A stretch of DNA of 64,000 nucleotides from Mucilaginibacter ginsenosidivorax (GTDB lineage Bacteria > Bacteroidota > Bacteroidia > Sphingobacteriales > Sphingobacteriaceae). Position numbers and translations under genes: made by a program. Below, piece after piece: positions 213 through 56,461 of the stretch. Location: contig NZ_CP042437.1 of NCBI RefSeq assembly GCF_007971525.1, forward strand, positions 930,001 through 994,000, given 5' to 3'. Every line of letters begins with the position of its first letter. Positions within the stretch are counted from its first letter, which is position 1. The notes beneath the pieces were generated by a model, which saw only the letters and a program-made list of their open reading frames with translations, was not told the DNA's origin and did not search any database.

Positions 213-3200
213 TTACAGTTGAACATTTATCCCCACGTTAAACACTTTTTGAACCGGGTAACCCAGCCCGTTACTCCCTTGCTCAGGATCCCAAAGCTTA
301 AAGCCGCTGATAAGGAACAGGTTGGTGCCGTTGGCATAAATCCTTAAGCCCGATATATGGAACTTTTTTAAGGTTTTATCTTTAATACTATACCCTAATT
401 CGGCGGTTTTCATGCGCATAAAAGCCCCGTTACGCATCCACCAGTTGGATGGCTGGTTATTGTTGGTATTTTGCGTTAAACCAAGCCTGGGCCAAAAAGC
501 ATATAAGTTCCGGTTATCTTCAGACCAGTGATCATTGGCCACTACGTTAAGCAAACCATGCTGGTAAGCGCCATTGGCCACAAAGGGAGAAATAGCCGTA
601 GGATCGATAAAAAATGACGACCGGGCCGATCCCTGGAAAAATGTACTGATATCAAAGTTTTTATAGCCGAACGAGAAGCCGAAGCCGTAAATAATTTCGG
701 GCGTGGTTGGGTAACCAAGGCCGTTAATCATATCAAGCGCGGTTATTTGCCCGTCGCCGTTTAAATCGCGGTATTTGATATCGCCTCCCCTCACCTCGCC
801 AAAGTTTTGCTTGGGCGAGTTTTTTACATCTTCGTCATCAACAAACAAGCGTTCGGCAACAAGGCCGTACACTTCGCCCAGTGATTGCCCCACGCGCGAC
901 AGGTATTGTTCATTTGCCGGGTAAGCAGGCTCTTCGTTTACCAGCAGCTTACTGGCCGCATAGGTAAATGTGCCCCGCATTTGCAGCCAGGCGCTGCCAA
1001 AGTTTTTATTATAATCAATAGCCACATCAACACCCTTGCCTTCGGCCACGCCTACGTTGGCGCTCACGGGGGCCGTAAGCCCCATGGTAGTGGGTATATA
1101 GGCCCGCTGCATTAAAATATTGCTGCGGCGCTCATGATAGGCATCTATGGTTATGTTTAGGGCATCAAACAAACCCAAATCCATCCCGATATTGGTTTTC
1201 TTTGATTTTTCCCAGGTGATGCCCTCATTGGCATATCTGGAGATAGAAACGCCAGGGCGGTTGTAGGCATAGTTTTCGCCAAAATATGATCCGAAAGTAC
1301 CATCGTTAAGGTTTACATTGGATAGGTAAAAAAACCTGTCGTTGGCATTACCAATCTGGTCATTACCCACCAAACCGTAAGTGGCGCGGAACTTTAACTT
1401 GGTGATGGTGTGCACTAAGGGTTCAAAAAACTTTTCGTTATTAACATTCCAGGCAACGCCTACTGACGGGAAAAACCCAAAACGGTTGTTGCGTGCAAAA
1501 CGTTCCGACCCGTTGTAACCAAAGTTGGTTTCAAACAGGTAACGGTTATCGTACCCGTAGGTTAGCCTGCCGCTAACGCCCTGGTTACGAAAAGGGAGCG
1601 ACGATTGCAAATCGCCGGCATTGCCGGTAACATAGTTACGCTGTATACCAATGAGCAGGCCGCTTATATTATGTAATTTGTTAAAAGTGCGGTTATAGTT
1701 TAGGGCAACCTCGGCGTAGTTGGTACTGTTTACTACTTTATTGCCCTGGTTGTAGTTAAGGTATTCGGTAGCCGATTTTTCGTTTAATAACGATAAGGTA
1801 TAACCTTTAGGATCGGTAGCCGAGGGGCTGGCCGCGTAATAAAACGGCGTATACTGCCTGCTCAGGTTAAAGTAAGCATAGCGCTGGGTATAAGCCATGG
1901 CCCTTGCCGAGAGGCCTTCGGTGATAAATTTCAGGTCCTGTTTAATTTCCAGCTGTACATTCAGGGTTGATGTGCTGTACTGCTGAAATCCAGATACCAT
2001 ATCGGCAAAAGGGTTATCATAAACATCGCCGTTTGAACCCCTTGGCGCGTTACCAAATAAGGGGTGCTTAACCAAAGGCAGATCAGACGCGGGGAATGTG
2101 GCCGGGAACAACACCGGGTTGGCATTTAACGCGCTGCCGAAAACAGCGCCGCCACCTCCTATTGGGCCGTTATAATCATCAAAATCTCCGGACGTACGTA
2201 CGATGGCCTCGGTAGATGAGGTGAGTTTTACGTTTACGTTCGACCGGATCTCGTAGCTTTTAAGGCTTACGTTGTTGTTGAAATTGTTACCTGTTTGCGC
2301 CTTTAACACACCATTATCTTTATTGGCCGATGCCGATATATAATATTGCGCCCGGTTAACACCGCCGCTGATGTTTAAGTTAAGCCTTTGGTTATTGGTG
2401 TAATTTTTAATTAACGAGCCAATCCAGTCGTTACTTGGGTACAGCAGCGGATTATCCCCGGCCATGGTGTGGTCAATTTTGTTTTGGGTGTAGGGCAACG
2501 GCGACAGCGGATTGCGGGTAAGGGCCGCTTCGTTTGATAATTTCATGTAGGTGATATTATCGGCCAGGGCAAAGTTTTGCGTGTTTGTTGAGGTAGAATT
2601 TTCAAACCGCACATTCATTTTGGTATCGCCCACTTTGCCCGATTTGGTGGTAACCAGGATAACGCCATTAGCGCCACGTGCACCATATAATGATGAAGCT
2701 GCTGCATCCTTCAGGATAGAAAACCCGGCAATATCATCGGGCTGAAGGCGGGCCAGCGTATTGGTGGTTGACTCCATCCCATCAATCAATATCAGCGGAT
2801 CGATTTTACCCGAGCCAAACGAGGTTATCCCTCTGATAAAGAATGAAGCGTTATCGGCCCCCGGTTCGCCACTGCGCTGGTACGATATTAAACCGGCAAT
2901 ACGGCCGGCAAGCATGGTGGTTAAGTTGCTGGTTGGCCCTTTTAACTCTTTGGGGTTAATTGTAGTGATAGAGCTTACCATACTTTCCTTTTTCTGGGTA
3001 CCGTAGGCTACTACCACAACCTCGTTCAGGTCGTTTTTATCGTCAAGCAAAACTACATTAATGGTGTGCCGCTGGTTAACGGCTACCTCTTGTTTGGCAT
3101 AGCCCAAAAACGAAAACACCAGGGTATCGGTGGCGTTGGGCACCTTAATGGTGTAATCGCCGCTAACTGTGGTAATGGTACCGCTTTTGGTATGTTTTAC

Positions 3201-3359
3201 GGCAACACTTACGCCGGGCATTACCAGCCCTTTGTTGTCGGTTACCTTGCCACTTACAGTAAATGCTGTTTGCGCCAGGGATACCTTCCCCAGGATCAAT
3301 AAAAACAGTAAGCAACAAAGGTACTTCACCTTCAAATAGGTAAAAATTCTTTCATTCAT
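213..3359 (-). CDS. SusC/RagA-type TonB-dependent outer-membrane transporter
   Basis: A 1048-residue protein with signal peptide (ending near VSLAQ, residue 30), a carboxypeptidase-D-like beta-sandwich (about residues 33-110, starting VSGKVTDNKG), the NEVVVVAYGTQKK segment that precedes the plug, a plug domain (about 120-240) and a C-terminal beta-barrel ending in INVQL. This is the standard SusC layout and length. It imports oligosaccharides across the outer membrane using TonB energy, paired with the SusD lipoprotein just downstream. There is no STN domain, so anti-sigma signalling is unlikely. A promoter with the proposed GntR operator lies 40-75 bp upstream. The alpha-mannoside substrate is inferred from the GH92 and mannose-6-phosphate isomerase genes nearby. 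Confidence 0.95.
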   Translation of the reverse strand: MNERIFTYLKVKYLCCLLFLLILGKVSLAQTAFTVSGKVTDNKGLVMPGVSVAVKHTKSGTITTVSGDYTIKVPNATDTLVFSFLGYAKQEVAVNQRHTINVVLLDDKNDLNEVVVVAYGTQKKESMVSSITTINPKELKGPTSNLTTMLAGRIAGLISYQRSGEPGADNASFFIRGITSFGSGKIDPLILIDGMESTTNTLARLQPDDIAGFSILKDAAASSLYGARGANGVILVTTKSGKVGDTKMNVRFENSTSTNTQNFALADNITYMKLSNEAALTRNPLSPLPYTQNKIDHTMAGDNPLLYPSNDWIGSLIKNYTNNQRLNLNISGGVNRAQYYISASANKDNGVLKAQTGNNFNNNVSLKSYEIRSNVNVKLTSSTEAIVRTSGDFDDYNGPIGGGGAVFGSALNANPVLFPATFPASDLPLVKHPLFGNAPRGSNGDVYDNPFADMVSGFQQYSTSTLNVQLEIKQDLKFITEGLSARAMAYTQRYAYFNLSRQYTPFYYAASPSATDPKGYTLSLLNEKSATEYLNYNQGNKVVNSTNYAEVALNYNRTFNKLHNISGLLIGIQRNYVTGNAGDLQSSLPFRNQGVSGRLTYGYDNRYLFETNFGYNGSERFARNNRFGFFPSVGVAWNVNNEKFFEPLVHTITKLKFRATYGLVGNDQIGNANDRFFYLSNVNLNDGTFGSYFGENYAYNRPGVSISRYANEGITWEKSKKTNIGMDLGLFDALNITIDAYHERRSNILMQRAYIPTTMGLTAPVSANVGVAEGKGVDVAIDYNKNFGSAWLQMRGTFTYAASKLLVNEEPAYPANEQYLSRVGQSLGEVYGLVAERLFVDDEDVKNSPKQNFGEVRGGDIKYRDLNGDGQITALDMINGLGYPTTPEIIYGFGFSFGYKNFDISTFFQGSARSSFFIDPTAISPFVANGAYQHGLLNVVANDHWSEDNRNLYAFWPRLGLTQNTNNNQPSNWWMRNGAFMRMKTAELGYSIKDKTLKKFHISGLRIYANGTNLFLISGFKLWDPEQGSNGLGYPVQKVFNVGINVQL

Positions 3360-3400: not shown

Positions 3401-3437
3401 TATGTACATAATTACATATTAAAATAACAAAAACAAA
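3401..3437 (-). promoter_or_regulatory. Promoter of SusC with overlapping putative GntR operator
   Basis: On the minus strand the -33 box TTTG (3434-3437) is followed by exactly 19 bases and the -7 box TAATTATG (3407-3414; consensus TAnnTTTG). The -7 box is embedded in an 18-base site, TATGTACATAATTACATA on the plus strand (3401-3418). That site matches the one upstream of the second GH92 gene (16572-16589) at 17 of 18 bases. The start codon is about 40 bases further on. Overlap of operator and -7 box suggests repression. That GntR is the binding protein is inferred. Confidence 0.7.
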
Positions 3438-3849
3438 ATTTTTTGAAATAAAATTTAAATAAGTTGTGAATCAGTGCTTAAAACGTCACTTTATCCTGTG
3501 ATTTAATGATTTAGGTGTCCATTATATTAATTATAATGGTAAACATTCGAACATATTTATTAAATGTTGATACATTATAAAATATTTTAAAAAGATTCAC
3601 TAAAAACGAGAGGATGCAACGGAAAAACCGACTTTAAAAAGGCACAAAACAGGTTGTTGTAATTTGTATTGCATTTGTGTGCATTTGTATAACTTTTTTA
3701 AAAGAAAAGTTTCAATTAATGACATAAAAGTAACTCATAAGTGAGGGGTTTTAAACATCTTGCAGGGCACAGAAAGCCATAACGCAAAACAGGCCGCAAA
3801 GCGGCCTGTCAATCATGTTTTTATACTTTTAATGAAGTACACATCCACG
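3419..3849. other. Intergenic AT-rich stretch with one hairpin
   Basis: No gene is visible. It carries the upstream part of the SusC promoter and, at 3789-3809, a perfect 9-bp hairpin (ACAGGCCGC, AAA loop). On the minus strand the hairpin is followed by TTTT, so it may be a weak terminator for the leftward glycosidase gene at 4420-5718, although it is 600 bp from that stop codon. Confidence 0.4.
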
Positions 3850-4099
3850 CGTCATTGTAAGTATCCGGCAGATAAAACGTAAAAACATGAAGATGACTTG
3901 CAACGAAATATAGCTAAATCAATTTACTAAAGTATCGCTATTATGAGGTACGAAGCAATCCCGAACTATGTGGGACTTAGCACATCGGGGATTGCTTCGT
4001 ACCTCGCAATGACGATCGTTTAGTGCATCCGTTTAACTATATCCATTGCACGTCATAACGATTTCTCCAGGTTTCACCTGATGGTTACCAGCAATGACG
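3850..4099. mobile_element. 250-bp nested palindrome, MITE-like
   Basis: The ends are CGTCATTG (3850-3857) and CAATGACG (4092-4099). The outer arms are imperfect inverted repeats: GCAACGAAATATAGCTAAA on the left mirrors TTTAACTATATCCATTGC on the right. A central hairpin is built on GAGGTACGAAGCAATC / GATTGCTTCGTACCTC. There is no coding capacity. A related copy with the centre and right arm only lies at 60458-60625. The size, terminal inverted repeats and dispersed copies resemble a miniature inverted-repeat element. No target-site duplication was established. Confidence 0.55.
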
Positions 4100-4204
4100 G
4101 ATATTCGATATTGGTAATCAGCTTCTTGCAAACACATCATGGTGATTGATAAAATTTCGCGAAGCTCGGAAAAGGGGCGATGGCGTACATTGCATGGCGG
4201 CGAC

Positions 4205-4374
4205 GACTCACCCGGCTACGCTGCGCTGGCCACCCTCTCTTCGGCTTCGCCGGAAAGAGGGGCTTGAAAATTTATTATTTTTTTTCTCTATAATATATTG
4301 ATATTGAGCACTCAAGCCCCTCTTTCCACCGCAGGTGAAGAGAGGGTGGCGGGCGTAGCCTCGCCGGGTGAGTC
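4205..4374. repeat. Long hairpin repeat element, copy 1
   Basis: Two arms of about 65 bases begin with GACTCACCCGGC and end with GCCGGGTGAGTC. Each contains CCCTCTCTTC and GGAAAGAGGGGCTTGA, and they surround an AT-rich loop. A second copy is at 50435-50601. The sequences outside the arms (TTGCATGGCGG to the left, TTAGCCnGCGTTCAA to the right) have the same orientation in both copies, whereas the interior is reversed. The element lies just past the stop codon of the leftward glycosidase gene and could also act as a transcription barrier. Confidence 0.7.
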
Positions 4375-4419
4375 TTAGCCGGCGTTCAAGAGAGTGTTTC
4401 TTTTTTACTTACACAAGCC

Positions 4420-5718
4420 TTATTTATTCCTGGCAGCCCATTGTTTTAAAACGGTAATAGCATCATAAAGCACACCAGCCTCGCCCCTGAAATCGCCCGA
4501 ACCTTTCGGGGTGCCGCTTCGTACATCGTACCACTCAAAAAAACCTTTGTTGGTTATAACCCTATCCAGCATTGGCGATAACTCGGCATAAGCATCCTTC
4601 GCATAACCGTATGATAATAAGGGGGCTATCATGCGGCCGCCAAACCATGTCCAGTCGCCGCCGTTCTGGTAATCGTAGGAGTGCATGTTCGGGAAGCGCT
4701 CTGTTGGGTATGGCGGGTAAACGGTAATGCCGATAGTTGCATGCTTTTCTTTAGCTGCTGCAGCCACCATCTGGCGGTTTATTTCTTTAACCTCGGCCGG
4801 AGTATTAAAACCAGCCTGTATCGCACATATCGACCCGCCTAAATACAGGATCTCTTTTTCATTAAAATCGGGCGTAAAGGGGCTGCCATTCAGGTACAGG
4901 TGCGGGATATACTTTTGCGCTTTACTATCCCACAGATATTTACGTACGTTTTTTGTAACAGCAGCCGCTACAACCGACCAGTTTTGTTTGGCTTTATAGC
5001 CTTTGGGCTGCATGGCCACAAAATCGTGCAGGGCCATCACAAACATGGCATTATCATATATATCAATGGCCCATTTGGTTTTATCGTTAATAGCCACACC
5101 CCAGCCGCCATCGGCCTGCACATCGCCCCAATCAATAGTGGTAGCCCCGGTTACCAGGCCGTACTTTGCAGACCAGCGGTCTTTTTGCAGGTATATAAAA
5201 GCATCCTCCATACGCTGCAATACTGTTTTGCCACCAATCACTTCATTCAAAATGGTTTTATCGCCGGTAACATCAATATACTTTTTTACAGCCTGCACCA
5301 GCGATGATTCCTGGTCGGTCTCCACTGTATTTTTATGGGCCGCCCAGCCACGCAATAAAGGCGAGTAACGATATTTGTAACCCACGTTTGCTTTGGCGCT
5401 ATCTACCACACCATCAACTATATTACCATCGTCGCCCTGGATCTTAAAAAATAGTAGTATCTTTGTTTTAACCTCATCCTTAGGATGCACCCGGAGCGAT
5501 CCCTTAATAAAAGTATTAAAATCGCGGATCCAAACCTCGTTGTAGGATGTGCCTGCAGAAAAGCCCGAAAGTAATTTTAAAGCCCTGGCCTGGATGGTAT
5601 CTAACCGTTCATCGGCCATGATAGCTTTGGCAAGCGTCGCCTTACCTGTTGTTTGAGCGTTGGCAGCTAAGCCGGTAAACGTAGAAAGCGTAATAAAAAA
5701 AGGCAAAAGTATTTTCAT
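4420..5718 (-). CDS. Secreted (alpha/alpha)6-barrel glycosidase-like protein
   Basis: A 432-residue protein with signal peptide MKILLPFFITLSTFTGLAAN and a periplasmic domain rich in motifs typical of six-hairpin glycosidases: VWIRDFNTFIKGSL (about residue 65), TVETDQESSLVQAVKKYID, DIYDNAMFVMALHDF and GDWTWFGGRMIAPLLSYGY near the end. The family could not be fixed. It lacks the GH125 motif around AMWLRDS, so I do not call it an exo-alpha-mannosidase. Its position between SusC/SusD and the GntR/mannose isomerase genes, and a promoter matching theirs, suggest a role in mannoside breakdown. The acidic catalytic residues cannot be assigned by eye. Confidence 0.65.
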   Translation of the reverse strand: MKILLPFFITLSTFTGLAANAQTTGKATLAKAIMADERLDTIQARALKLLSGFSAGTSYNEVWIRDFNTFIKGSLRVHPKDEVKTKILLFFKIQGDDGNIVDGVVDSAKANVGYKYRYSPLLRGWAAHKNTVETDQESSLVQAVKKYIDVTGDKTILNEVIGGKTVLQRMEDAFIYLQKDRWSAKYGLVTGATTIDWGDVQADGGWGVAINDKTKWAIDIYDNAMFVMALHDFVAMQPKGYKAKQNWSVVAAAVTKNVRKYLWDSKAQKYIPHLYLNGSPFTPDFNEKEILYLGGSICAIQAGFNTPAEVKEINRQMVAAAAKEKHATIGITVYPPYPTERFPNMHSYDYQNGGDWTWFGGRMIAPLLSYGYAKDAYAELSPMLDRVITNKGFFEWYDVRSGTPKGSGDFRGEAGVLYDAITVLKQWAARNK

Positions 5719-5787
5719 GTAGGATTAATTTTATAAATGAAGCTATTTTAGGATATAATAACGCTGTTATCTGGCACCGACAACAAA

Positions 5788-5824
5788 TATGTACAAACAT
5801 AAAAACATTAAAATTCAATCCAAA
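5788..5824 (-). promoter_or_regulatory. Promoter of the glycosidase gene with overlapping putative GntR operator
   Basis: On the minus strand TTTG (5821-5824) is followed by 19 bases and the perfect -7 box TATGTTTG (5794-5801), which runs into TACATA. The combined plus-strand site TATGTACAAACATA (5788-5801) shares TATGTACA with the operator-like sites before SusC and the second GH92. It lies in the divergent gap (5719-6008) between this gene and the GntR gene, so the same site could also affect the regulator itself. Confidence 0.7.
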
Positions 5825-6008
5825 TTTATTCCGTGTTTTATTTACAGAAAATATAAAGCTATCTTTAAGTTTCAGACAATCCCGGTAAAAACAGCCGAAT
5901 GTTTTGTTTAGCACATAAGGGATAAACATATTAATAAAACAGTGGCCGTTAATTAACAAATTATTTAATTTGCACCATACTGTTTGTAAAACCTGGATAA
6001 ATACCAAC

Positions 6009-6743
6009 ATGAAATTTTCAATTGATCATAAAAGCAGCGTTCCTCTTCATATACAGGCCGAAAACCTGCTGAGAGAACTGATAAAAGACCCTGAATACCA
6101 GGCAGGTAAGCTTTTACCCAACGAAGTAGATTTGGCAAAAAAACTGGCCATTTCCAGGACCACGCTGCGCCAGGCTATCAACAAACTGGTTTATGAGGAA
6201 CTCCTGATCAGGAAAAAAAAGCTGGGAACAAAAGTGGCCCAGCCCAAAATGAGCTCAAAAGCAATGAACTGGCTAAGTTTTACCCAGGAAATGCAGGCTC
6301 GCGGTATTATCATTAAAAACTACGAACTACATGTAAGCTGGGTGTACCCGGACGATTATATAGCCAACTTTTTTGATATAAAAACCGAAAAAAAGATCCT
6401 GAAACTGGAGCGCTTAAGAGGAAATGCCGACGAAGCTTTTGTTTATTTTGTATCGTATTTTCACCCCAGGATTGGCCTTACCGGTGATGAGGATTTTAAA
6501 AAACCGCTATACGAAATGCTTGAAAATGAGCATTCTGTAGTTGCCGATTTATCAAAAGAAGAAATTAGCGCCAAAGCGGCCGATAAATTTATTGCCGGCA
6601 AACTGGAGATTGATATTGGCAGCCCGGTACTTTTCAGGAAGCGTTTTGTATTTGACCAGGGCGACCGGCCAATGGAGTATAACCTGGGTTACTACAAAGC
6701 CGAAAGTTTTGAGTATACAGTAGAAAGCCGAAGGACAAGCTAA
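6009..6743 (+). CDS. GntR-family transcriptional regulator (HutC/UTRA type)
   Basis: A 244-residue regulator. An N-terminal winged helix (about residues 5-75: VPLHIQAENLLRELI, then LAKKLAISRTTLRQAINKL) is followed by a UTRA ligand-binding domain (about 90-240), with the KKILKLERLRGNADE and PVLFRKRFVF strands typical of that family. UTRA regulators usually sense a sugar phosphate or similar metabolite and release DNA when it binds. I chose the ATG at 6009 over an in-frame upstream codon at 5970 because the HTH then starts in its usual place. The divergent glycosidase, the following isomerase gene and shared operator-like sites suggest it controls this mannose locus. Confidence 0.9.
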   Translation: MKFSIDHKSSVPLHIQAENLLRELIKDPEYQAGKLLPNEVDLAKKLAISRTTLRQAINKLVYEELLIRKKKLGTKVAQPKMSSKAMNWLSFTQEMQARGIIIKNYELHVSWVYPDDYIANFFDIKTEKKILKLERLRGNADEAFVYFVSYFHPRIGLTGDEDFKKPLYEMLENEHSVVADLSKEEISAKAADKFIAGKLEIDIGSPVLFRKRFVFDQGDRPMEYNLGYYKAESFEYTVESRRTS

Positions 6744-6768
6744 GCCGAAACTAAATATTAATTACTTG

Positions 6769-6815
6769 TTTGTAATTTAAATGAAATCTAATATGTTTGC
6801 ACATTATAACATATA
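6769..6815 (+). promoter_or_regulatory. Promoter of the mannose-6-phosphate isomerase gene with putative GntR operator
   Basis: The -33 box TTTG (6769-6772), 19 bases and the perfect -7 box TATGTTTG (6792-6799) are followed by CACATT, aligning with the TACATA that follows the -7 boxes of three other promoters in this locus. An outer inverted repeat TATGTT / AACATA (6792-6797, 6808-6813) also spans the expected transcription start. Confidence 0.65.
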
Positions 6816-6823
6816 ACGATTGT

Positions 6824-8635
6824 ATGAACAGAGGTCCCGTTTTAAAAAATGATGTCAAACCTGATATTCAAGAACTGAGGTCGACCAGCCAATTCCTTAT
6901 TCCGGCTGAAAAGCAATCGGCACAAAAATCTGGATACGATATCTACCCTACGTTTAAAATTGACGGGCCTATTTTTAACGGATTTGGAAAGCTGGCAAGC
7001 TGGATCATAGCGCAGCAGCAAAACATCATTATTGATGGATACTCGGGCGTGTACTGGGATATTTTTGTAAATCACCTTAATAATGAGCTTATTAATAAGG
7101 GAGCAAACGTAAACTGGATAAACATTAATGAAGCCTTAAAACCCGAATTGGTTATCCATGCCACAATAGAACCTTTTATGGGTGGCAACGACCCCTTGTT
7201 TGGGAAGATTTACGAAGATACCCTGGCAGATTTTTTTGACGAGGAACTGTTAAGCGAAATAACGCCTTTGAACGGCTGCCTGAACATTATTTATGGCTGC
7301 GGCGCGGCACTCAGCGGCTGGCAGGCACCCCTTATTTACCTGGATGTACCCAAAAACGAAATCCAATTCAGGTCGAGAGCCAACAAGATCTGTAACCTTG
7401 GCGATCACCAGCCTGCAGACCCTAAAATACAGTACAAACGGTTCTATTTTGTTGACTGGCCGGTACTTAATAAACATAAAAAGCAATTACTACCTGCTGT
7501 TGATATCATTGTTGACGAGCAAAGAATTGATGATATCAGCTGGGCAACCGGCGATACCCTCAGGAACGCGTTAAAACAGCTATCTGGCCATATGTTCAGG
7601 GCCCGGCCGTGGTTTGAACCAGGCGTATGGGGTGGCCGCTGGATAAAAGATAACATTAATGGCTTAAACGACGACGTGGTAAACTATGCATGGTCGTTTG
7701 AGTTGATAGCACCCGAAAACGGCATTATACTTGAATATGATGACCATATGCTTGAAGTATCATTAGATACCCTGTTTTTATACAACAGCCAGGCTATTTT
7801 AGGTAAAGCGGCAGATAGATTTGGTGATGCCTTCCCCATCAGGTTTGATTTCCTGGATACCTTTGACGGCGGCAACCTTTCATTGCAATGTCATCCTACC
7901 GTAGCTTACACCAAGGCAAATTTTGGCGAAGATTTTACCCAGGACGAAACTTATTATATTCTTGATGCCGAACCGGGGGCCGAGGTGTACCTGGGTTTCC
8001 AGGATAATATTGACGCACAGGAATTTAAAGCTGTACTGGAAGACAGTTTTCAAAACAACCAGCCCGTTGAGATAAAGGACTACGTGCAAACATTCCCGGC
8101 AAAAAAGCATGACCTTTTCCTGATTCCAAACGGCACGGTACATTGCTCGGGCAAAAACAATATGGTACTTGAAATAAGCGCCACGCCCTATATTTTCACC
8201 TTTAAAATGTACGATTGGCTTCGCCCGGATTTAAACGGAAACCCGCGTACATTAAATATCGACAGGGCATTTGAAAATCTAAACTTCGACAGAAAAGGCA
8301 GCGTGGTTACCGACACGTTAATATCAAAACAAAGGGTAGCCAAACAAGGTAAAGATTGGCAGGTAATTAACCTTACCACGCATCCCGAGCATTTTTACGC
8401 CGTTGAGCGTTTTGAATTTGACACCGTTGTTGAAGAAAACACCAATAACCAATGCCATGTATTAAGCCTGGTAGAAGGCGAAAGCATAAAAGTTACCACC
8501 AACGGGTTAACGCAAGTTATCCATTATGCCGAAACATTTATTGTACCGGCCAATGCGATAAACTACACAATGACCAATACCGGCAACAGCAGGGCAAAAG
8601 TGGTAAAAGCCTTTGTTAAGGATGAATGCTGTTAA
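6824..8635 (+). CDS. Class I mannose-6-phosphate isomerase with N-terminal kinase-like domain
   Basis: A 603-residue protein. The C-terminal half (about 265-600) is a type I phosphomannose isomerase cupin with candidate zinc ligands Gln355 and His357 (in LQCHP), Glu375 (DETYYIL) and His440 (IPNGTVHCSG). It would convert mannose 6-phosphate to fructose 6-phosphate. The N-terminal half (about 45-255) resembles a P-loop uridine-kinase-like fold (IIIDGYSGVYWD, then YGCGAALSG and IYLDVPKNE), but its glycine-rich loop lacks the GxxxxGK[ST] lysine, so it is probably not an active kinase. ATG 6824 is preferred over an in-frame TTG at 6797, which lies inside the -7 box. It is followed after 46 bp by a sugar transporter. 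Confidence 0.9.
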   Translation: MNRGPVLKNDVKPDIQELRSTSQFLIPAEKQSAQKSGYDIYPTFKIDGPIFNGFGKLASWIIAQQQNIIIDGYSGVYWDIFVNHLNNELINKGANVNWININEALKPELVIHATIEPFMGGNDPLFGKIYEDTLADFFDEELLSEITPLNGCLNIIYGCGAALSGWQAPLIYLDVPKNEIQFRSRANKICNLGDHQPADPKIQYKRFYFVDWPVLNKHKKQLLPAVDIIVDEQRIDDISWATGDTLRNALKQLSGHMFRARPWFEPGVWGGRWIKDNINGLNDDVVNYAWSFELIAPENGIILEYDDHMLEVSLDTLFLYNSQAILGKAADRFGDAFPIRFDFLDTFDGGNLSLQCHPTVAYTKANFGEDFTQDETYYILDAEPGAEVYLGFQDNIDAQEFKAVLEDSFQNNQPVEIKDYVQTFPAKKHDLFLIPNGTVHCSGKNNMVLEISATPYIFTFKMYDWLRPDLNGNPRTLNIDRAFENLNFDRKGSVVTDTLISKQRVAKQGKDWQVINLTTHPEHFYAVERFEFDTVVEENTNNQCHVLSLVEGESIKVTTNGLTQVIHYAETFIVPANAINYTMTNTGNSRAKVVKAFVKDECC

Positions 8636-8681
8636 TTAAAAATCTAAAATAAAAATAAACCATTACCTAAATTACCATTTC

Positions 8682-10091
8682 ATGAACCAGCAAAATTCAA
8701 AGTCTGTACAAAGCAGGTCTACCCTATTTTTGGTGGCCATTACTTTGGTAGCAACATTGGGCGGTTTACTTTTCGGTTTTGATATGGCCGTAATTTCGGG
8801 CGTACTGCCTTTTGTTAAAAGCCAGTTCTCGTTATCATCAGCTACAGAAGGTTGGTTTGTATCATCGGCATTGGTTGGCTGTATTATCGGCGTATCCTTC
8901 TCGGGCGATTTAAGCGACCGGATAGGCCGCAAAAAGATGTTAATGTTGGCGGCCATATTATTCCTGCTTTCGGCCATTGGCTCGGCGTTATCATCGGGCT
9001 TTACCTTACTCATACTGGCACGCATGCTTGGTGGCATGGGCGTAGGCGTGGCATCAATTGTAGCACCTTTGTATATCTCAGAAATTGCCCCCGCAAACGT
9101 GAGGGGTCGCCTGGTTACCTTTTACCAGCTGGCTATTACCGCGGGGATACTGGTGGCCTATTTAACCAACGCGGGCTTACTAAGTTTTTCGTTAAACTAT
9201 AAAGGCAGCGGATTGGGCGATATTTTAAACCTGGTACTGGTTAAGGAAGTTTGGCGCGGCATGTTGGGTTTAGGTACAGTGCCCGCCTTGCTATTTTTTA
9301 CAGGCTTATGTTTTGTACCCGAAAGCCCGCGCTGGCTTATCCAGCAAGGTAAAAATGATGAAGGGATAGCTATTTTGGCAAAAATTACCAATATGGCTTC
9401 GGCGCAAAAAGATGCTCTGCTAATACAAAACACCAAAAGCCAGGAGAAAGGATCATATAAAGAAGTGTTTTCGCCGGCCATGCGCAAACCCTTGCTTATC
9501 GGCCTGCTGCTGCCCCTGTTTTCGCAGTTTAGCGGTATTAACGCTGTAATATATTACGGGCCGCGTATTTTAAGCGATGCGGGCATTAACATCACCAATG
9601 CGCTACTTGGGCAAATCGTTTTTGGCATCGCCAATTTCCTGTTTACCATTATAGCCATCTGGAAGGTTGATAAAATGGGGCGCAGGCCATTATACATTGC
9701 AGGTTCGTTGGGTGCCACAGTGTGCCTGGCATTTACGGGCATTTGTTTTTACGCAGGTACAACCAGCAGCATCTCGTTAGTTATCAGCATTATACTATTC
9801 CTGGCTTGTTTCGCATTCTCTATCGGGCCGCTCAAATTTGTTATCGCTTCAGAAATTTTCCCTACCAAAATACGTGGCAGGGCTTTGGCTTTAAGTATCA
9901 TGGTGATGTGGATTGCCGATACTATTGTGGGGCAGCTTACACCCATGTTTTTAGGCTCGGTTGGGCCGGCAGCTACCTTTTGGTTTTTCTCGGCTTGCTG
10001 CCTGCTATCATTCTGGGTAGTATATAAACTGGTGCCCGAGACCAAGGGTAAATCGCTTGAGGAGGTTCAGGAGATTTGGGCGGGGCATTAG
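8682..10091 (+). CDS. Sugar porter family MFS transporter
   Basis: A 469-residue inner-membrane protein with 12 predicted membrane segments. Sugar-porter signatures are present: DLSDRIGRKKM between TM2 and TM3, RMLGGMGVGVASIVAPLYISE, PESPRWLI after TM6, VDKMGRRPL in the second half, and the terminal PETKGKSLEEV. It most resembles XylE/GLUT-type proton symporters. It likely brings mannose or another monosaccharide released in the periplasm into the cytoplasm, feeding the upstream isomerase (46 bp away, same strand, probably one operon). The exact sugar cannot be read from the sequence. Confidence 0.92.
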   Translation: MNQQNSKSVQSRSTLFLVAITLVATLGGLLFGFDMAVISGVLPFVKSQFSLSSATEGWFVSSALVGCIIGVSFSGDLSDRIGRKKMLMLAAILFLLSAIGSALSSGFTLLILARMLGGMGVGVASIVAPLYISEIAPANVRGRLVTFYQLAITAGILVAYLTNAGLLSFSLNYKGSGLGDILNLVLVKEVWRGMLGLGTVPALLFFTGLCFVPESPRWLIQQGKNDEGIAILAKITNMASAQKDALLIQNTKSQEKGSYKEVFSPAMRKPLLIGLLLPLFSQFSGINAVIYYGPRILSDAGINITNALLGQIVFGIANFLFTIIAIWKVDKMGRRPLYIAGSLGATVCLAFTGICFYAGTTSSISLVISIILFLACFAFSIGPLKFVIASEIFPTKIRGRALALSIMVMWIADTIVGQLTPMFLGSVGPAATFWFFSACCLLSFWVVYKLVPETKGKSLEEVQEIWAGH

Positions 10092-10403
10092 GCCTCACTC
10101 TGCCCGCAAAGACTAATGTGAGTACACATTTTACCAAAAGAAAATGTCATTTCGAACGAACAGAGTGGGATTGTGTGAGGGGGTGAGGAGAAATCTTATG
10201 CGATTTGCATTCCGAGGGGCCATGTTGATGCAGGGCGTTAAAGATTTCTCCTCGTACCTCGTTCGAAATGACAACTTCTTTTTATAGGGACTTGTGTGTG
10301 CCCAGCAGTCTTGGGGAGAGGGTTCTTGATTTACATGTTTTTTAAATCCTCTCCTTTGGAGAGGATTTAGGTGAGGCTCTTAACGATATATAAAATAAGC
10401 AAT
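10092..10403. other. Intergenic region filled with hairpin repeats
   Basis: No gene is visible. It contains the GTCATTTCGA hairpin element (10146-10272) and a perfect 11-bp hairpin AAATCCTCTCC-TTT-GGAGAGGATTT (10344-10368), followed by AGGTGAGGCT, a motif common in Bacteroidota spacers. No clear promoter for the following GH92 gene was found, so it may depend on read-through from the transporter gene. Confidence 0.45.
10146..10272. repeat. GTCATTTCGA palindromic element, copy 1
   Basis: The ends are GTCATTTCGAACGA and TCGTTCGAAATGAC, with inner inverted repeats GAGAAATCTT / AAGATTTCTC. A related 151-bp element is at 53179-53329. It is noncoding and would form a cruciform or a long RNA hairpin. 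Confidence 0.65.
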
Positions 10404-12677
10404 ATGATAAGGATACGCAAAACGGCTGTATTGTTCCTGGCAATTTCATGCGTGTATTTAAGCGGCGCCGCGCAAACAAAACAGCCGGTTGATTATGTTG
10501 ATCCGTTCATCGGCACATCTAATTCCCGGTGGATGCTGTTCCCTGGTGCCACCATGCCCAACGGAATGGTTAAGCTTAGCCCCGATAATCAAAGAGGTGT
10601 TTGGCAGGGCGGTTATGAGTATGCCGTAGGGAGTATCCATGGCTTTAGCTTTTTACACGGCTGGACAATGGCGGGCCTACTGACCATGCCTGCCAACGGC
10701 GATCTGTCCACATCACCAGGCGCGCCCGACGAACCGTTTAAAGGGGCCGGGGCCGGTTACCACTCCAGGTTCAGGCACGAGGATGAAAAGGCCTCGCCGG
10801 GGTACTATTCTGTTTTCCTGTTGGACCCGCAGGTTAAGGTGGAACTGACTGCAACCGAACGTATCGGTGTGCAGCGCTATACTTTTGCCAAAGACAGCTC
10901 GAACCGGATCATGATCCAGCTTAACATCCCGGCAGAGTATGGTTATGACCTGAAAGATGCTGTTATTACTAAAGTGTCCAACTCCGAGATACAGGGTTAT
11001 GCCAAAACAGCATCGGCCAATTTTAATGACTATACCCTGTATTTTGTAATGCAGTTTAACAAGCCTTTTCATGATTTTGAGGGATATGGAAACCAATCGG
11101 CAGTTAAGAGCAATAAAGAGATCAAAGGATCGGGCGAGTTGGGTGCATACGTTACCTACCCAACCTCCAAAACCGAACAGGTAATACTCAGAACAGGGAT
11201 CTCATTTGTTAATATGGACCAGGCCCGGCTCAATCTTAAAACCGAGTTGAAAGATTTCGGCTGGAATTTTGACGCCCTGGTAAAACATAACCGGACAATA
11301 TGGAATAATACCCTAAAAAGCATTGCGGTAACCGGTGGCAGCGAAACCGATAAGAAGAAATTTTACACCAATTTTTACCGCTGTTTCACTGCCAAGATGA
11401 TCATGAGCGATGCCAACGGAAAATATACCGATGCCTGCGAAAATGTACAGCAATTACCGGCCGGGCGCACTGCAATGATAGGTGGCGATGCTTACTGGAA
11501 TACCTTTTGGAATTTGAACCTGCTATGGACCCTGACATCGCCTGATATGGTGCAGCAACTGGTAGATACGCAGCTGGAAATGTATGAAAAAACAGGCTGG
11601 CTATCTAAAGGCCCTGCGGGGATTGAGTACTCGGGCATTATGGAGGGCTCGCATGAAATGGCATTGATTTCCAGCGCGTATTTAAAAGGCATAGTAACCA
11701 AAGATGCTGAGATAGCTTACCGCGCCATGAAAAAGACGATGGAGGTTGAACCCACTCCTACCTGCGGGGGCAATCCGGGCAATCCACAGATAACTGATTA
11801 TGCCAAATTTGGCTTTGTACCTGTTGAAAAAGGTGCCACCTCAAAAGCATTAGATTATGCGTACGATGATTGGTGCGTAGCCCAGATGGCTAAATTGCTG
11901 CATAAGGATGATGATTATAACTTTTTTTTAAAGCGATCTGCAAGCTGGAAAAACGTTTTTAACCCGGCAAGCCGCTACGTTACGCCAAGGAAAGCAGATG
12001 GCTCATTTATCCCTGATTTCGACCTTTTTTCTGTTAGTCATTTTGTGGAGGGCAACTCCTGGCAATATTCGTTATATGTGCCGCATGATGTTCCGGGTTT
12101 AATCAATTATATCCATAAGGATGAATTTTTAAAGCGGCTAACCATCGGCTTTCAAAAATCTGAGGTACACAAATTTGCGGCGCACGCGCTTGACCGTACT
12201 ATGGGGCAATCGGCCGAATATTATATTAACCAGGGCAACGAGGTAAATATGCAGGCAGCTTTCCTGTTTAATTATGCAGGCAAGCCATCCCTTACCCAAT
12301 ATTATACCAGGAAGATACTGAACACTTTTTATGATGCCTCGCCCTACGTTGGCTGGAATGGCGACGAAGACGAAGGCCAGATGGGTGCCTGGTTTGTATT
12401 AAGCTCGATGGGTTTATTTGAAATGAACGGCGGCACATCGCCCGATTTAAGGATTGATATTACCAGCCCCCTGTTTAGCGATATTAAAATCAATTTGAAC
12501 CCATCCTATTTCAAGGGAAAATCATTCGAGATTAAGGCATATCATAATTCGGCCAAAAACATTTACATCCGTACGGCAAAGCTAAACGGTAAAACCTTAA
12601 AGGGTAACCATATCAGCTTTAAAGATATTGTAAACGGCGGCAAGCTGGAGTTGTATATGAGCGCTGCCGCTAATTAA
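10404..12677 (+). CDS. GH92 alpha-mannosidase, secreted
   Basis: A 757-residue exo-alpha-mannosidase-type enzyme. Signal peptide MIRIRKTAVLFLAISCVYLS ends near GAAQ. The N-terminal beta-sandwich begins VDYVDPFIGTSNSRW and includes LFPGATMPNGMVKLSPDNQ. The (alpha/alpha)6 part contains YWNTFWNLNLLW, FVEGNSWQYSLYVPHDVPG with the probable catalytic acid Glu549, and WNGDEDEGQMGAW (acidic cluster 654-657) with the base and metal residues. GH92 enzymes are calcium-dependent and trim terminal alpha-mannose from N-glycans or yeast mannan. ATG 10404 is preferred to 10371 because it gives a clean signal peptide. It converges on another GH92 gene downstream. Confidence 0.95.
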   Translation: MIRIRKTAVLFLAISCVYLSGAAQTKQPVDYVDPFIGTSNSRWMLFPGATMPNGMVKLSPDNQRGVWQGGYEYAVGSIHGFSFLHGWTMAGLLTMPANGDLSTSPGAPDEPFKGAGAGYHSRFRHEDEKASPGYYSVFLLDPQVKVELTATERIGVQRYTFAKDSSNRIMIQLNIPAEYGYDLKDAVITKVSNSEIQGYAKTASANFNDYTLYFVMQFNKPFHDFEGYGNQSAVKSNKEIKGSGELGAYVTYPTSKTEQVILRTGISFVNMDQARLNLKTELKDFGWNFDALVKHNRTIWNNTLKSIAVTGGSETDKKKFYTNFYRCFTAKMIMSDANGKYTDACENVQQLPAGRTAMIGGDAYWNTFWNLNLLWTLTSPDMVQQLVDTQLEMYEKTGWLSKGPAGIEYSGIMEGSHEMALISSAYLKGIVTKDAEIAYRAMKKTMEVEPTPTCGGNPGNPQITDYAKFGFVPVEKGATSKALDYAYDDWCVAQMAKLLHKDDDYNFFLKRSASWKNVFNPASRYVTPRKADGSFIPDFDLFSVSHFVEGNSWQYSLYVPHDVPGLINYIHKDEFLKRLTIGFQKSEVHKFAAHALDRTMGQSAEYYINQGNEVNMQAAFLFNYAGKPSLTQYYTRKILNTFYDASPYVGWNGDEDEGQMGAWFVLSSMGLFEMNGGTSPDLRIDITSPLFSDIKINLNPSYFKGKSFEIKAYHNSAKNIYIRTAKLNGKTLKGNHISFKDIVNGGKLELYMSAAAN

Positions 12678-12867
12678 ACTTTAATCCTGAGCTGTAAAAT
12701 CCAGCGAATCTGCCGGTAATGGTATCCCTTAAAGTGTCATGTTTGGGTGATAAAATTTCACAAAATCCTGAAGGGAAATAGCATTCAAAAATAAAATACT
12801 GTCATGCTGAGTGGTAAAATTTAGCGAAATTCTGAAAGAGGGAATGACAATTAAAAATAAACCACTG

Positions 12868-13056
12868 TCATCCTGAGGCACGAAGGATCTATTCGCGAAC
12901 TTTATTGGCGGTTATGCATGGCGTACAATAGATCCTTCGCTATCGCTCAGGATGACAGAAAATGAAACTTGTCATGGGTAGGAACGAAGCATCTATTAGC
13001 GAACTTTTCTATCGCTCATGCATAGCTGATAGATCCTTCGTACCTCAGGATGACAG
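12868..13056. repeat. Two tandem GTCATCCTGAG-type hairpin units
   Basis: Unit one begins GTCATCCTGAGGCACGAAGG (12868) and ends GCTCAGGATGACAG (about 12959). Unit two follows immediately (from about 12969) and ends CCTCAGGATGACAGG. Both carry AGATCCTTCG near the right arm and TATT(C/A)GCGAACTTT near the left, so they are divergent copies of one element. Confidence 0.6.
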
Positions 13057-13082
13057 GAGGTGTGACATCGGTTTAATCTTCA

Positions 13083-13175
13083 ATGTCATGCCGAACTTGT
13101 TTCGGCACCCCACATGCTAAGTGTACTTCATGCGGGTCACCTATCCTGTGGGATCCCGAAACAAGTTCGGGATGA
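13083..13175. repeat. GTCATGCCGAACTTG-type hairpin
   Basis: Left arm TGTCATGCCGAACTTGTTTC and right arm GAAACAAGTTCGGGATGAC face each other, separated by GC-containing spacer. It is a different family from the neighbouring units but shares the terminal GTCAT / ATGAC ends. Confidence 0.6.
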
Positions 13176-13274
13176 CTTTCGTTTTTAAACATATCATAGT
13201 CAGTAACCAAGTATCCGCTTGCGAACCTCGCATTGTAGATTACATACAACTGTCCGATCCGAGTATAATCAAAA

Positions 13275-13306
13275 AAACTTGCGAAGTTTAAAAACTTCGC
13301 AAGTTT
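13275..13306. terminator. Perfect 15-bp hairpin, bidirectional terminator candidate
   Basis: AAACTTGCGAAGTTT and its exact complement are separated by two adenines. It lies 32 bp beyond the stop codon of the leftward GH92 gene and would end transcripts arriving from either side. Confidence 0.6.
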
Positions 13307-13337
13307 AGTCCCAGGCAAATGCGGGAGCTATAATTAC

Positions 13338-16300
13338 CTACTGCGTAACCGGCAAGTCCTTAATACCCCATGACTTATTAGGTTCGGGGCCCATTTCCAG
13401 CTTTAGCTCCCCTCCTTTTAACAATTCAGATGCGGGAAACCAGAAGGATTGCAGCGCTTTACCGTTAAGTGTAGCGCTTTGTACATATTTATTATCCCTC
13501 GATACGTTTTTAGCCTCGATGGTAAAGCTTTGCCCCCTGCCGTACGCGCCGTTAAGGTGAATGGTTACTTTAGGAAAAATGGGGCTTCCTATTTCGTATA
13601 TCGGGTGTGCACCGGCACCGCCATCTGTTTGGAAAAGCCCTAAGGCGTTCATTATAAACCACGAACTCATTTGCCCCTGGTCTTCATCGCCCAGGTAGGC
13701 ATTGGCTACACCAAAGCCGTAAAAACGATCGACCACCGAGCGGCTCCATTTTTGGGTAAGCCAGGGGTGTTTGCCCCAGTTAAACAGGAACGCAAACTGC
13801 ATACTTTGCTGGTTGCCCTGTATCACCGGGTAGTCCCAATACTGATCGCCGGGGGCATTAAACCTCAGCTTGTAGCTCTCTTTAAAGCCCCAGCTCAACC
13901 TGTCGATAAACTTATCCTGGCCTATTTTCTGTATCAGGCCGGGAACATCCTGGGGTACAAAAAACGTGAGCTGCCACGCATTTCCTTCTACATAATGCTC
14001 ATTAGCGCCCGACCGGAAAGGATCAAAATTTGGATACCAGATACCATCTGAATTTTTCATCCGCGAATACCCAATTGTTGTATCCATCGCATTTTTCCAA
14101 TAGCCCGACCTGGTTTTAAAGGTGTCGTAAATATCATTACGGCCTAATGACTTTGCCAGTTGCGAAACTGTCCAATCGTCATAAGCGTACTCCATTGTGT
14201 TTGAAAACCGCCCTTTATCATACGGCACATATTTGTATTCTAAATAGGCTTCCAGGTCTTCATTTCCTGCAAAGCCTGCCTTTCCTACTTTTTGTGCGGG
14301 CGTAGTCTGCATTTTCACCACAGCTTTAAGCACCTTTTGCGAATCATAATCGCGGATGCCCATCTGGTACGCGCCCACCATCAGCGGGATCTCGTGCTCG
14401 GCTACCATCACCGGCACGTAGTTCATCCCGGCGGGACCTTTTGCAAGCCAGCCATCAGCATCGTACATAGCCAGTTGAGATTTTACCCAGTTTGACGACC
14501 ATTCGGGCGTTGCCAGGTTCCAAAACTGGTTAAGGTTCCAAAAGGTGTTCCAAAACGCATCGCAACCCATTGCCGGCGATTTAGGGTCTTTCAATTGCTG
14601 CAGTTTTTTCGAGGCATCAATCCATTGCCCGTTTACATCACTCCAGGTATTGCGGCTGGCCAGCGCCCGGAACATGTTACTATAAAACCGCATTTTTTCG
14701 CGGCTATCGTTGGTGCTTATCTCCAGGCGCCCCAATAGCTTATTCCAGGTTTCCTTTTGGCCTTCACGTACTTTTTCAAAGTTCCAGTTATACGGTTTGG
14801 TAATTTCTTCTGTTAAATTTTGTGCCGCGTTATCAAGGCTCACCAGTGATATGCCGGTGCGGGTTTGTACCACCTGGTTTTCGCGGGTACCAAACTCCAC
14901 ATAAGCGCCCGCATTTTTAGGGTCAATAGCACCTACAATATCACCATCCCCTACTTTATTATTTACCCAGGTGCCAAATTTGCGTATTGGGCGGTCAAAC
15001 TCAATCACAAAATAAACTGTATAGTTTTGATCGACCCCGCCCGACCATGCATCCTTGGTAAATTGCTTGCTCGATCCTTCTATCCGGGTATCGCTAACCT
15101 TCTTTAATGTAACATCCTTTAGGCTGTAACCATATTCCGCCGGGATTTTCAAGTCAATCATTACCCTTGCATTTTCGGTTTTGGGGTAGGTATAACGTTC
15201 AAAACCGCAACGGGTGGTTGCCGTAAGCTCGGCTTTAATGTGATAATCGGTCAGCATTACTTTATAATACCCTAAAGGCGCTTCCTCGCTCGATTTATCA
15301 ATCTGCGAGCGGTAACCGCCATCGCGTTTACGCTCGTCGCCAATACGGGTTTGCAGCGGGCCGCTGGTGGGCATCATACCCAGGCCGGCCATTGTCCATT
15401 CATGAATGTGGCTAAATGTACCTATACTTTCAAAAGTGGGATCGTAACCACCCATCCAGCCCCCGTTTTGGTTATCGGGGCTCAGTTTAACCATCCCAAA
15501 AGGCATCCAGGGACCAGGTGCAATCATCCACCTGGAGTGAGCCGAACCCAGGCGCGTATCAACATAATCTGCAGGTGTTTGTAGCTTATTGGGCAACCGC
15601 AGCACTACTCCTTTTTCAAGCAAAGTATCGTTGCAAAAAACCTCGTAGCTGCTTTTTTTTGCGGCTGCAACAGCCGGCATAGGCGCTTCAAACACATACC
15701 TCGCCGAATCCAGTTTATCGGAAAAAATTATCTTGCCGTCCAGCTTAACCAGCAATTTAGGTTTTCCGCTCAGGTGCTGTGCATCAACAAGCAGCGGCTG
15801 ATATCTTTTTTTACCATCTTCAATATCATATGCCGCGGGTTTAACGCTGCGCAAAAAGATATTACCGGGAGCGGTTAGTTGTAGTTCCTTTGGACCATCC
15901 AGTTTAACCTGGTCAAATACCAGCCATGAGCCATCTATCGAGGTAATTTGGATTTCGTTTCCACCTTTGTGCAACAGGCCGTTTTTTATGGGGATGGTTA
16001 GCGTATAAGGATTGGCTTCACTAAGGTCGCCCTCAACAACCTTATTGTTTTTGCCGTTTGGCAGCCGGGTTTCAAACGACTGGCCGTTGATGACCACCTT
16101 TACCAATGGCGGCGAGGCGGCATTATAGCCAACCATGTTTATGGTAAAACTATACCCCCCATTAACCGGCAAAGTTTTTACACCAAACAAAATATTAAGC
16201 ACCTGCGAATGAATGCCCGAAGTACCGCCCGTGCCGCCCCAGTCATCATTCGGGCCAGGTAATACATATGGCCAATCAATTTCGGGTTTAGATAGCCCGA

Positions 16301-16499
16301 TCAGAAAAAAGCGGTCCTCCCATCCAAAGTCATGGTCTAAAAAATGTTGGTATGCTGCAGGAGCCAACGCCATCCCCAAACTACTGCGGTCGGCCTTGCC
16401 TATTTGCCAGATTGTGCCTTGTTGGGCAAAACCTCTGTTTAATGTAAAGCACAATGCGGCCATTAAAAGCACACTTTTTCTATTAATCCTTATAAACAT
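13338..16499 (-). CDS. GH92 alpha-mannosidase with N-terminal CBM-like module
   Basis: A 1053-residue secreted protein. After the signal peptide (MFIRINRKSVLLMAALCF, ending near GFAQ) come about 190 residues with TIWQIGKADRS and GGYSFTINMVGYNA motifs, like the C-terminal CBM-like domain of family 4 rhamnogalacturonan lyases. A short beta-sandwich linker follows, then a full GH92 domain from about residue 310 (ADYVDTRLGSAHSRW). Catalytic landmarks are the probable acid Glu838 in YVEGNAWQL and the acidic motif GDEDQGQMSSW. The start at 16499 was chosen for the signal peptide; upstream in-frame codons run through the promoter. It probably trims alpha-mannosides, with the extra module binding glycan. 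Confidence 0.93.
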   Translation of the reverse strand: MFIRINRKSVLLMAALCFTLNRGFAQQGTIWQIGKADRSSLGMALAPAAYQHFLDHDFGWEDRFFLIGLSKPEIDWPYVLPGPNDDWGGTGGTSGIHSQVLNILFGVKTLPVNGGYSFTINMVGYNAASPPLVKVVINGQSFETRLPNGKNNKVVEGDLSEANPYTLTIPIKNGLLHKGGNEIQITSIDGSWLVFDQVKLDGPKELQLTAPGNIFLRSVKPAAYDIEDGKKRYQPLLVDAQHLSGKPKLLVKLDGKIIFSDKLDSARYVFEAPMPAVAAAKKSSYEVFCNDTLLEKGVVLRLPNKLQTPADYVDTRLGSAHSRWMIAPGPWMPFGMVKLSPDNQNGGWMGGYDPTFESIGTFSHIHEWTMAGLGMMPTSGPLQTRIGDERKRDGGYRSQIDKSSEEAPLGYYKVMLTDYHIKAELTATTRCGFERYTYPKTENARVMIDLKIPAEYGYSLKDVTLKKVSDTRIEGSSKQFTKDAWSGGVDQNYTVYFVIEFDRPIRKFGTWVNNKVGDGDIVGAIDPKNAGAYVEFGTRENQVVQTRTGISLVSLDNAAQNLTEEITKPYNWNFEKVREGQKETWNKLLGRLEISTNDSREKMRFYSNMFRALASRNTWSDVNGQWIDASKKLQQLKDPKSPAMGCDAFWNTFWNLNQFWNLATPEWSSNWVKSQLAMYDADGWLAKGPAGMNYVPVMVAEHEIPLMVGAYQMGIRDYDSQKVLKAVVKMQTTPAQKVGKAGFAGNEDLEAYLEYKYVPYDKGRFSNTMEYAYDDWTVSQLAKSLGRNDIYDTFKTRSGYWKNAMDTTIGYSRMKNSDGIWYPNFDPFRSGANEHYVEGNAWQLTFFVPQDVPGLIQKIGQDKFIDRLSWGFKESYKLRFNAPGDQYWDYPVIQGNQQSMQFAFLFNWGKHPWLTQKWSRSVVDRFYGFGVANAYLGDEDQGQMSSWFIMNALGLFQTDGGAGAHPIYEIGSPIFPKVTIHLNGAYGRGQSFTIEAKNVSRDNKYVQSATLNGKALQSFWFPASELLKGGELKLEMGPEPNKSWGIKDLPVTQ

Positions 16500-16571
16500 A
16501 TATTCAAAATTGATTTGCGCATAAATTATTGCCGGTACATTAATAACTGTAAAATGAATTACATTATAATG

Positions 16572-16608
16572 TATGTACATAAATACATAAAATATTTCAT
16601 TGCGCAAA
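16572..16608 (-). promoter_or_regulatory. Promoter of the second GH92 gene with overlapping putative GntR operator
   Basis: On the minus strand TTTG (16605-16608), 19 bases, and TATTTATG (16578-16585; one mismatch to TAnnTTTG) running into TACATA. The plus-strand site TATGTACATAAATACATA (16572-16589) differs at one base of 18 from the SusC site at 3401-3418, 13 kb away. Confidence 0.7.
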
Positions 16609-16789: not shown

Positions 16790-16797
16790 TACATTTG
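16790..16797 (+). promoter_or_regulatory. Candidate -7 box for the hybrid two-component gene
   Basis: TACATTTG matches the Bacteroidota -7 consensus and lies 57 bp before the chosen start. No TTTG or TTG was found at the expected -33 spacing, so the call is tentative. The rest of 16609-16854 is AT-rich without recognisable features. Confidence 0.35.
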
Positions 16798-16854
16798 AGT
16801 AGGGTGGCTCTTTACAGAACACCCGGCCTTTACAAAACCTGTTATAAACACTTA

Positions 16855-56200: not shown

Positions 56201-56461
56201 TGATTTAGGCAATTTTTTAATTTAGTCCTGCTTTATAAAAAGGTATTTAATTTACCCCTTACAAAACGGTAGCGAATCTGGCAGTTTTAAAGGTTAAGAT
56301 ACCCGATTTTTCTGGCTGTTTTTTTTATTTTTTACAAAAAACCTCAATTTTATTTTTGTGTAAATAAATGCACTATTTGTATCAATAAATAGCGTATTTG
56401 TTGCTGAAAAGTTCTAATTAATTATCTTTTTTTACTTGTTTATACATGAATAAAGAGTGGT

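Follow-up and report, generated by a model that had tools for sequence, protein, structure and literature searches.

The mannose locus of Mucilaginibacter ginsenosidivorax raises the question of what a conserved hexamer is doing immediately behind the -7 boxes of four of its promoters, and which protein reads it. Within the window, by which we mean the whole 64-kb stretch of DNA analysed, the original prediction placed TTTG, exactly 19 bases, a -7 box and this hexamer at each promoter. All four sites are present to the base, as composite elements at 3402-3437 (-), 5789-5824 (-), 6769-6804 (+) and 16573-16608 (-), in which the -7 box (TAATTATG, TATGTTTG, TATGTTTG and TATTTATG) is followed by YACAT. 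Two of the four boxes fit TAnnTTTG, while TAATTATG and TATTTATG depart from it by one base. The hexamer had been taken as an extra element beside the -7 box. It is indeed conserved, but it does not stand alone: TACATA forms either one arm or the core of a longer palindrome, the 14-bp TATGTA-N2-TACATA, and this palindrome shares bases with the -7 box. The evidence set out below makes it very probable that the four sites are the operators of one local regulon, under a mannose-phosphate-responsive GntR repressor that blocks their promoters (Table 1).

Table 1. Genes of the mannose locus and its surroundings, with operator sites (window coordinates; registers give the offset of the -7 box from the operator)
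Feature	Position	Strand	Description
gntR	6009..6743	+	244 aa; N-terminal GntR wHTH, C-terminal UTRA effector domain; candidate repressor for the mannoside regulon
SusC-like TonB-dependent transporter	213..3359	-	Pfam Plug and CarbopepD_reg_2; first gene of the SusC(/SusD) transcript
Secreted glycosidase	4420..5718	-	MGH1-like, below Pfam cut-off
Class I mannose-6-phosphate isomerase	6824..8635	+	603 aa; N-terminal domain of ~250 aa without family match
MFS sugar porter	8682..10091	+	Pfam Sugar_tr 1.3e-124; NCBIfam TIGR00879 sugar porter above cut-off
First GH92 exo-alpha-mannosidase	10404..12677	+	Pfam GH92 1.1e-133
Second GH92 exo-alpha-mannosidase	13338..16502	-	Pfam GH92 3.3e-131; CBM-like domain present
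HTCS gene	16795..21042	divergent from second GH92 gene	Hybrid two-component regulator
SusC operator TATGTACATACAAA	3397..3410	-	-7 box TAATTATG 3407-3414; TTTG 3434-3437; register -4; score 19.8
Auxiliary weaker operator-like palindrome AATGTTGATACATT	3563..3576	.	~166 bp upstream of SusC operator; score 12.0-13.1
Glycosidase operator TATGTTTGTACATA	5788..5801	-	-7 box TATGTTTG 5794-5801; TTTG 5821-5824; register 0; score 20.0
Isomerase operator TATGTTTGCACATT	6792..6805	+	-7 box TATGTTTG 6792-6799; TTTG 6769-6772; register 0; score 14.5
Second GH92 operator TATGTACATACATT	16568..16581	-	-7 box TATTTATG 16578-16585; TTTG 16605-16608; register -4; score 19.3

The palindrome stands out when all gapped palindromes with 5-bp arms and gaps of 0-8 are enumerated without bias in the intergenic regions flanking 80 GntR orthologs. 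TATGT-N4-ACATA occurs in 61 of the 80 loci and ATGTA-N2-TACAT in 50, against 1.0 and 0.5 expected from dinucleotide shuffles, and these two top-ranking palindromes describe one and the same 14-bp site. Refinement gave an 18-column matrix with the consensus wwTATGTAyrTACATAww. At a score of at least 14 there are 186 sites across 77 loci, the other three loci having none at this threshold. The sites lie almost entirely in front of genes: 176 are no more than 350 bp from the start of a gene and five fall inside coding sequence, though coding sequence makes up 90% of the DNA. They are also selective among genes of the same loci. A site is found upstream of 21/24 genes of the second GH92 class, 9/9 of the first SusC class, 35/53 glycosidase genes, 26/51 isomerase genes and 57/79 gntR genes, compared with 35/454 unrelated genes and 0/9 HTCS genes. 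Among the site-bearing genes counted as unrelated are sugar kinases of the ROK type, from Dyadobacter, and, in locus L112, a GH38-like gene, both identified by reading the sequence. The operator at ROK-family kinase genes recurs in five Dyadobacter loci (L075, L076, L077, L078 and L087), which suggests that a mannose kinase is part of the regulon in these loci.

The site accompanies the gntR gene in other genera and families as well. Sites are also present at all five orthologs that share 48-60% identity and come from four other families of the class, the best per locus scoring 14.4-19.7, and isomerase, GH92, MFS or SusC genes lie nearby. Of 20 comparison genomes from the same genus without the GntR protein, 18 also lack the long isomerase, and the isomerase-like loci of the set carry no site above 10.2. 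Because the loci were chosen by GntR presence, common descent explains some of the conservation seen between close relatives. For the remainder, selection is favoured by the varied gene orders, the occurrence in several families and the register analysis.

Within the window, the four sites rank first to fourth of the 64 kb under a matrix trained without the eight closest loci, where a Markov background predicts ~0.33 sites scoring at least 14. None of 2000 shuffles of the six gaps of the locus yielded four gaps reaching that score. The isomerase site is clearly weaker than the other three. The ATG of gntR at 6009, correctly placed by the original prediction, lies ~208 bp downstream of the glycosidase operator. 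The gap between the MFS and first GH92 genes has no operator directly upstream of the latter, the best score there being 5.0. A match at 56433 (score 12.9), ~620 bp before a cobalamin-independent methionine synthase gene, was considered as a further member of the regulon and is taken as a chance match.

All four predicted sites were recovered, and a fifth, weaker one adds to them. This auxiliary palindrome upstream of SusC has counterparts 159-178 bp before the main site in four other loci (L037, L038, L042 and L101), so that five species including the present one carry it, although one of these sites scores only 10.0. It may have a role in looping. A second site at ~160-178 bp is also what might be expected if the same GntR protein acted mainly as an activator, or in a dual role, with the auxiliary SusC site serving activation or looping. 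We consider such a role very unlikely. Most sites cover the -7 box and the DNA on its +1 side, a position at which bound protein would obstruct RNA polymerase, and NagR and HutC, which are related proteins of the HutC type, both act as repressors (PMC4333415, PMC12977541).

At the scale of the genome, it is the composite element rather than the bare palindrome that is distinctive. TTTG-N19-TAnnTWTG-YACAT occurs five times in 7.8 Mb and its reversed control not at all, and four of the five occurrences are the mannose-locus sites. The remaining one lies at genome position 1008711 in front of an ABC-F-like gene, and its sequence (TATATTTGCACAT) leaves the palindrome incomplete. The original prediction would have been undermined by a hexamer common behind the -7 boxes of unrelated genes. 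TTTG-N19-TAnnTWTG has 180 matches in the genome, and YACAT comes next in just five of them (~0.5 expected from base composition); the hexamer is thus not common behind -7-like boxes. This rarity bears on a rival reading, that the shared sequence is an extended -7 promoter element favoured by the primary sigma factor, with no operator at all. The reading does account for the fit of all four sites to TTTG-N19-TAnnTWTG, which is near the TTTG and TAnnTTTG consensus of the Bacteroidota primary sigma factor (PMC7366714). It is nevertheless most unlikely to be right, not only because so few promoter-like matches in the genome continue with YACAT, but also because the position of the palindrome relative to the -7 box differs by 4 or 8 bp from one gene class to another. 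The palindrome moreover occurs in reverse orientation and apart from any -7 box, unlike a sigma-factor element.

By itself, TATGT-N4-ACATA is not enriched in its own genome (four occurrences against nine for the control) and shows no general excess over the control in 400 genomes of the family and no enrichment in genomes encoding the GntR protein, which indicates a signal that is local and context-dependent. Allowing one mismatch gives 25 forward matches against 21 for the control, with those outside the locus mostly scoring lower, and no mannose genes were found at the two one-mismatch loci inspected (L005 and L007). A 10-bp palindrome, TATGTACATA, was rejected as the operator; it occurs six times in the genome against five for its control, and its presence here follows from the 14-bp site in register -4. 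The local character of the signal also weighs against a global regulator. A Crp-like protein, as BT4338 in Bacteroides, might be thought to read the palindrome in place of the local GntR protein, given that the motif proposed for the Bacteroides Crp-like regulator, wwwTATGTTnTAnAACATAwww, has the identical outer half-site TATGT/ACATA (PMC3878776). The half-sites of that motif are, however, separated by six bases instead of the four found here, and TATGT with a gap of 6 is not among the enriched palindromes. Since the sites in addition cluster at the mannose locus and follow the gntR gene, and the palindrome lacks genome-wide enrichment, we give this assignment very little weight.

For sites within 160 bp of a gene, overlap of the operator with TTTG-N18-20-TAnnTWTG was compared with shuffles of the upstream flank in which the operator was kept, and was seen in 57 cases against 2.2 expected. 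The -7 box falls at an offset of 0 from the operator in glycosidase and isomerase promoters, -4 in those of the first SusC and second GH92 classes, and -8 in MFS promoters, and almost nowhere else. These three registers are spaced 4 bp apart. In the window the layout is less uniform than first described: the TTTG spacing is exact throughout, but two registers are in use. Of the sites of the asymmetric TATGTTTGTACATA/TATGTTTG type, 36 point towards the gene and five away from it, and 23 of the 36 gene-directed sites have TTTG exactly 19 bases upstream. Whichever the register, a dimer on the operator would sit over the -7 box or immediately downstream of it. We favour, with somewhat less assurance than the regulon itself, the view that -7 box and operator form one fused element kept across several Bacteroidota families (TATGTTTGTACATA being both at once), that each of the three registers is typical of a gene class, and that a single GntR protein governs the alpha-mannoside pathway in full, from the outer membrane to glycolysis.

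The candidate reader is the only UTRA protein encoded in the 7.8-Mb genome, and a HutC-type palindrome fused to the -7 box upholds the original suggestion that the GntR/UTRA protein at 6009 is the likely reader of a shared operator. It matches Pfam GntR with 53.2 bits (cut-off 27; 2.3e-14) and UTRA with 88.5 bits (cut-off 23.8; 4.7e-25). Its closest solved relatives include NagR/YvoA and DasR, with a PDB match of 2e-23 to NagR. The histidine utilization repressor equivalog of HutC, NCBIfam TIGR02018, is matched with 78 bits, below its cut-off of 220. A GntR wHTH joined to a UTRA domain, a GT...AC palindromic predicted operator and an equivalent of Arg48 place the protein in the GntR/HutC subfamily. 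In NagR, Arg38 reads G-5 and Arg48 reads G-4 (PMC4333415). Arginine occupies the Arg48 column in 83/83 aligned orthologs, and the Arg38 position, V40 in the present protein, is V, I, L or M; the retention of one and replacement of the other agrees with the T-5 G-4 of the operator. In the effector domain, the phosphosugar residues Arg133, Arg135, Tyr167, Arg211, Glu222 and Tyr228 (NagR numbering) are invariant or nearly so. Changes from NagR in the pocket (Glu145 to Phe, Ser165 to Pro and Ala224 to Asn) are consistent with another sugar phosphate as effector. The AlphaFold model of the protein (pLDDT 59.8) was too poor for use.

These observations lead to a model for the regulon in which the GntR protein would bind the sites as a repressor and respond to a phosphosugar. 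A GntR dimer is predicted to bind TATGTA-N2-TACATA through the core TGTA-N2-TACA. At the glycosidase and isomerase promoters the left half of the palindrome is the -7 box TATGTTTG itself; at the SusC and second GH92 promoters the palindrome begins within the -7 box and extends towards +1. Repression is proposed because the operator overlaps the promoter, and the bound protein may keep the primary sigma factor off the -7 region. Mannose that is taken up and phosphorylated would then supply the phosphosugar that binds the UTRA domain and releases the GntR protein from DNA. The presence of mannose-6-phosphate isomerase in the regulon makes mannose-6-phosphate the most likely effector. Release would open transport (SusC/SusD and MFS), hydrolysis (the GH92 enzymes and the glycosidase) and entry into glycolysis (the isomerase) together.

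The gene content of the locus merits separate description. The MFS porter gene is probably cotranscribed with the isomerase gene. A SusD-like gene comes after the SusC ortholog in locus L037. The glycosidase reaches 25 bits against Pfam PF22422 (cut-off 27) and no PDB match was found for it; its family is unsettled, yet the operator is present in its upstream region across many loci. In the isomerase, residues 261-586 match 1qwr with an E-value of 9.3e-12. The structure model (pLDDT 90.7) has a Foldseek match of 1.1e-23 to 1qwr, and structural alignment gave a Z of 31.3 and an rmsd of 2.4 over 310 residues. Known isomerases are matched only from about residue 250 onward. The preceding 250 residues have no match in Pfam or NCBIfam, and among the structural relatives listed by VIA-align none corresponds to them, the list being filled by the C-terminal domain. 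They are confidently predicted to form an alpha/beta domain and are kept in 31/31 aligned relatives. The gaps beside the first GH92 gene (10130-10290 and 12700-13200) contain dispersed imperfect inverted repeats of the GGATGACAG / CATCCTGAG type that resemble small interspersed repeats. The HTCS gene next to the second GH92 gene precedes a separate SusC/SusD cluster, which also includes an FG-GAP/ASPIC protein and a GH35 beta-galactosidase and is probably the one that this regulator serves.

Control of mannoside SusC/SusD genes by a GntR protein was at first presented as a departure from their usual regulation. This overstated the case: comparative genomics led in 2013 to the prediction that ManR (BT2103), a GntR-family regulator of Bacteroides thetaiotaomicron, governs the uptake of mannose, its conversion to fructose-6-phosphate and an oligo-alpha-mannosidase operon with SusC/SusD (PMC3878776). 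As far as a comparison by description alone allows, the two systems share a GntR regulator and matching regulon gene content, control here being deduced from the sites. They differ in range, with ManR in Bacteroides and the present regulon mainly in Sphingobacteriaceae, Chitinophaga, Dyadobacter and four more families. Pseudomonas HutC, a GntR/HutC subfamily repressor with the operator TGTA-N2-TACA (PMC12977541), shares the GntR wHTH, a HutC-type effector domain and this core palindrome. HutC, however, regulates histidine utilization, and the promoter overlapped by its hutU site is of the sigma-54 type, whereas mannoside genes and the Bacteroidota -7 box are involved here. NagR/YvoA of Bacillus subtilis and DasR of Streptomyces are relatives over the full length of the sequence, with the Arg48-type contact to G-4 and a phosphosugar pocket that is mostly kept (PMC4333415); the present protein departs from them in having V or I for Arg38, T-5 for G-5, and altered Glu145, Ser165 and Ala224 positions. 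The HTCS_Man systems of B. thetaiotaomicron likewise control alpha-mannan SusC/SusD loci, but are hybrid two-component regulators with direct-repeat sites (PMC3878776), and the HTCS adjoining the present locus precedes another SusC/SusD cluster.

Our literature search found no described version of the regulon for Sphingobacteriaceae, Chitinophaga or Dyadobacter, and no local regulator of alpha-mannoside use for soil- or plant-associated Bacteroidota outside Bacteroides. With GntR control of mannoside SusC/SusD genes already known by prediction from ManR, what is new here is a well-conserved example and its anatomical detail. Operators embedded in the -7 box provide natural material for asking how much variation the Bacteroidota -7 element can accommodate, and the promoters offer a possible mannose-responsive element for genetic tools in the phylum. 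For alpha-mannoside use in soil- and plant-associated Bacteroidota, the locus provides a concrete candidate operator and a candidate regulator to go with it.
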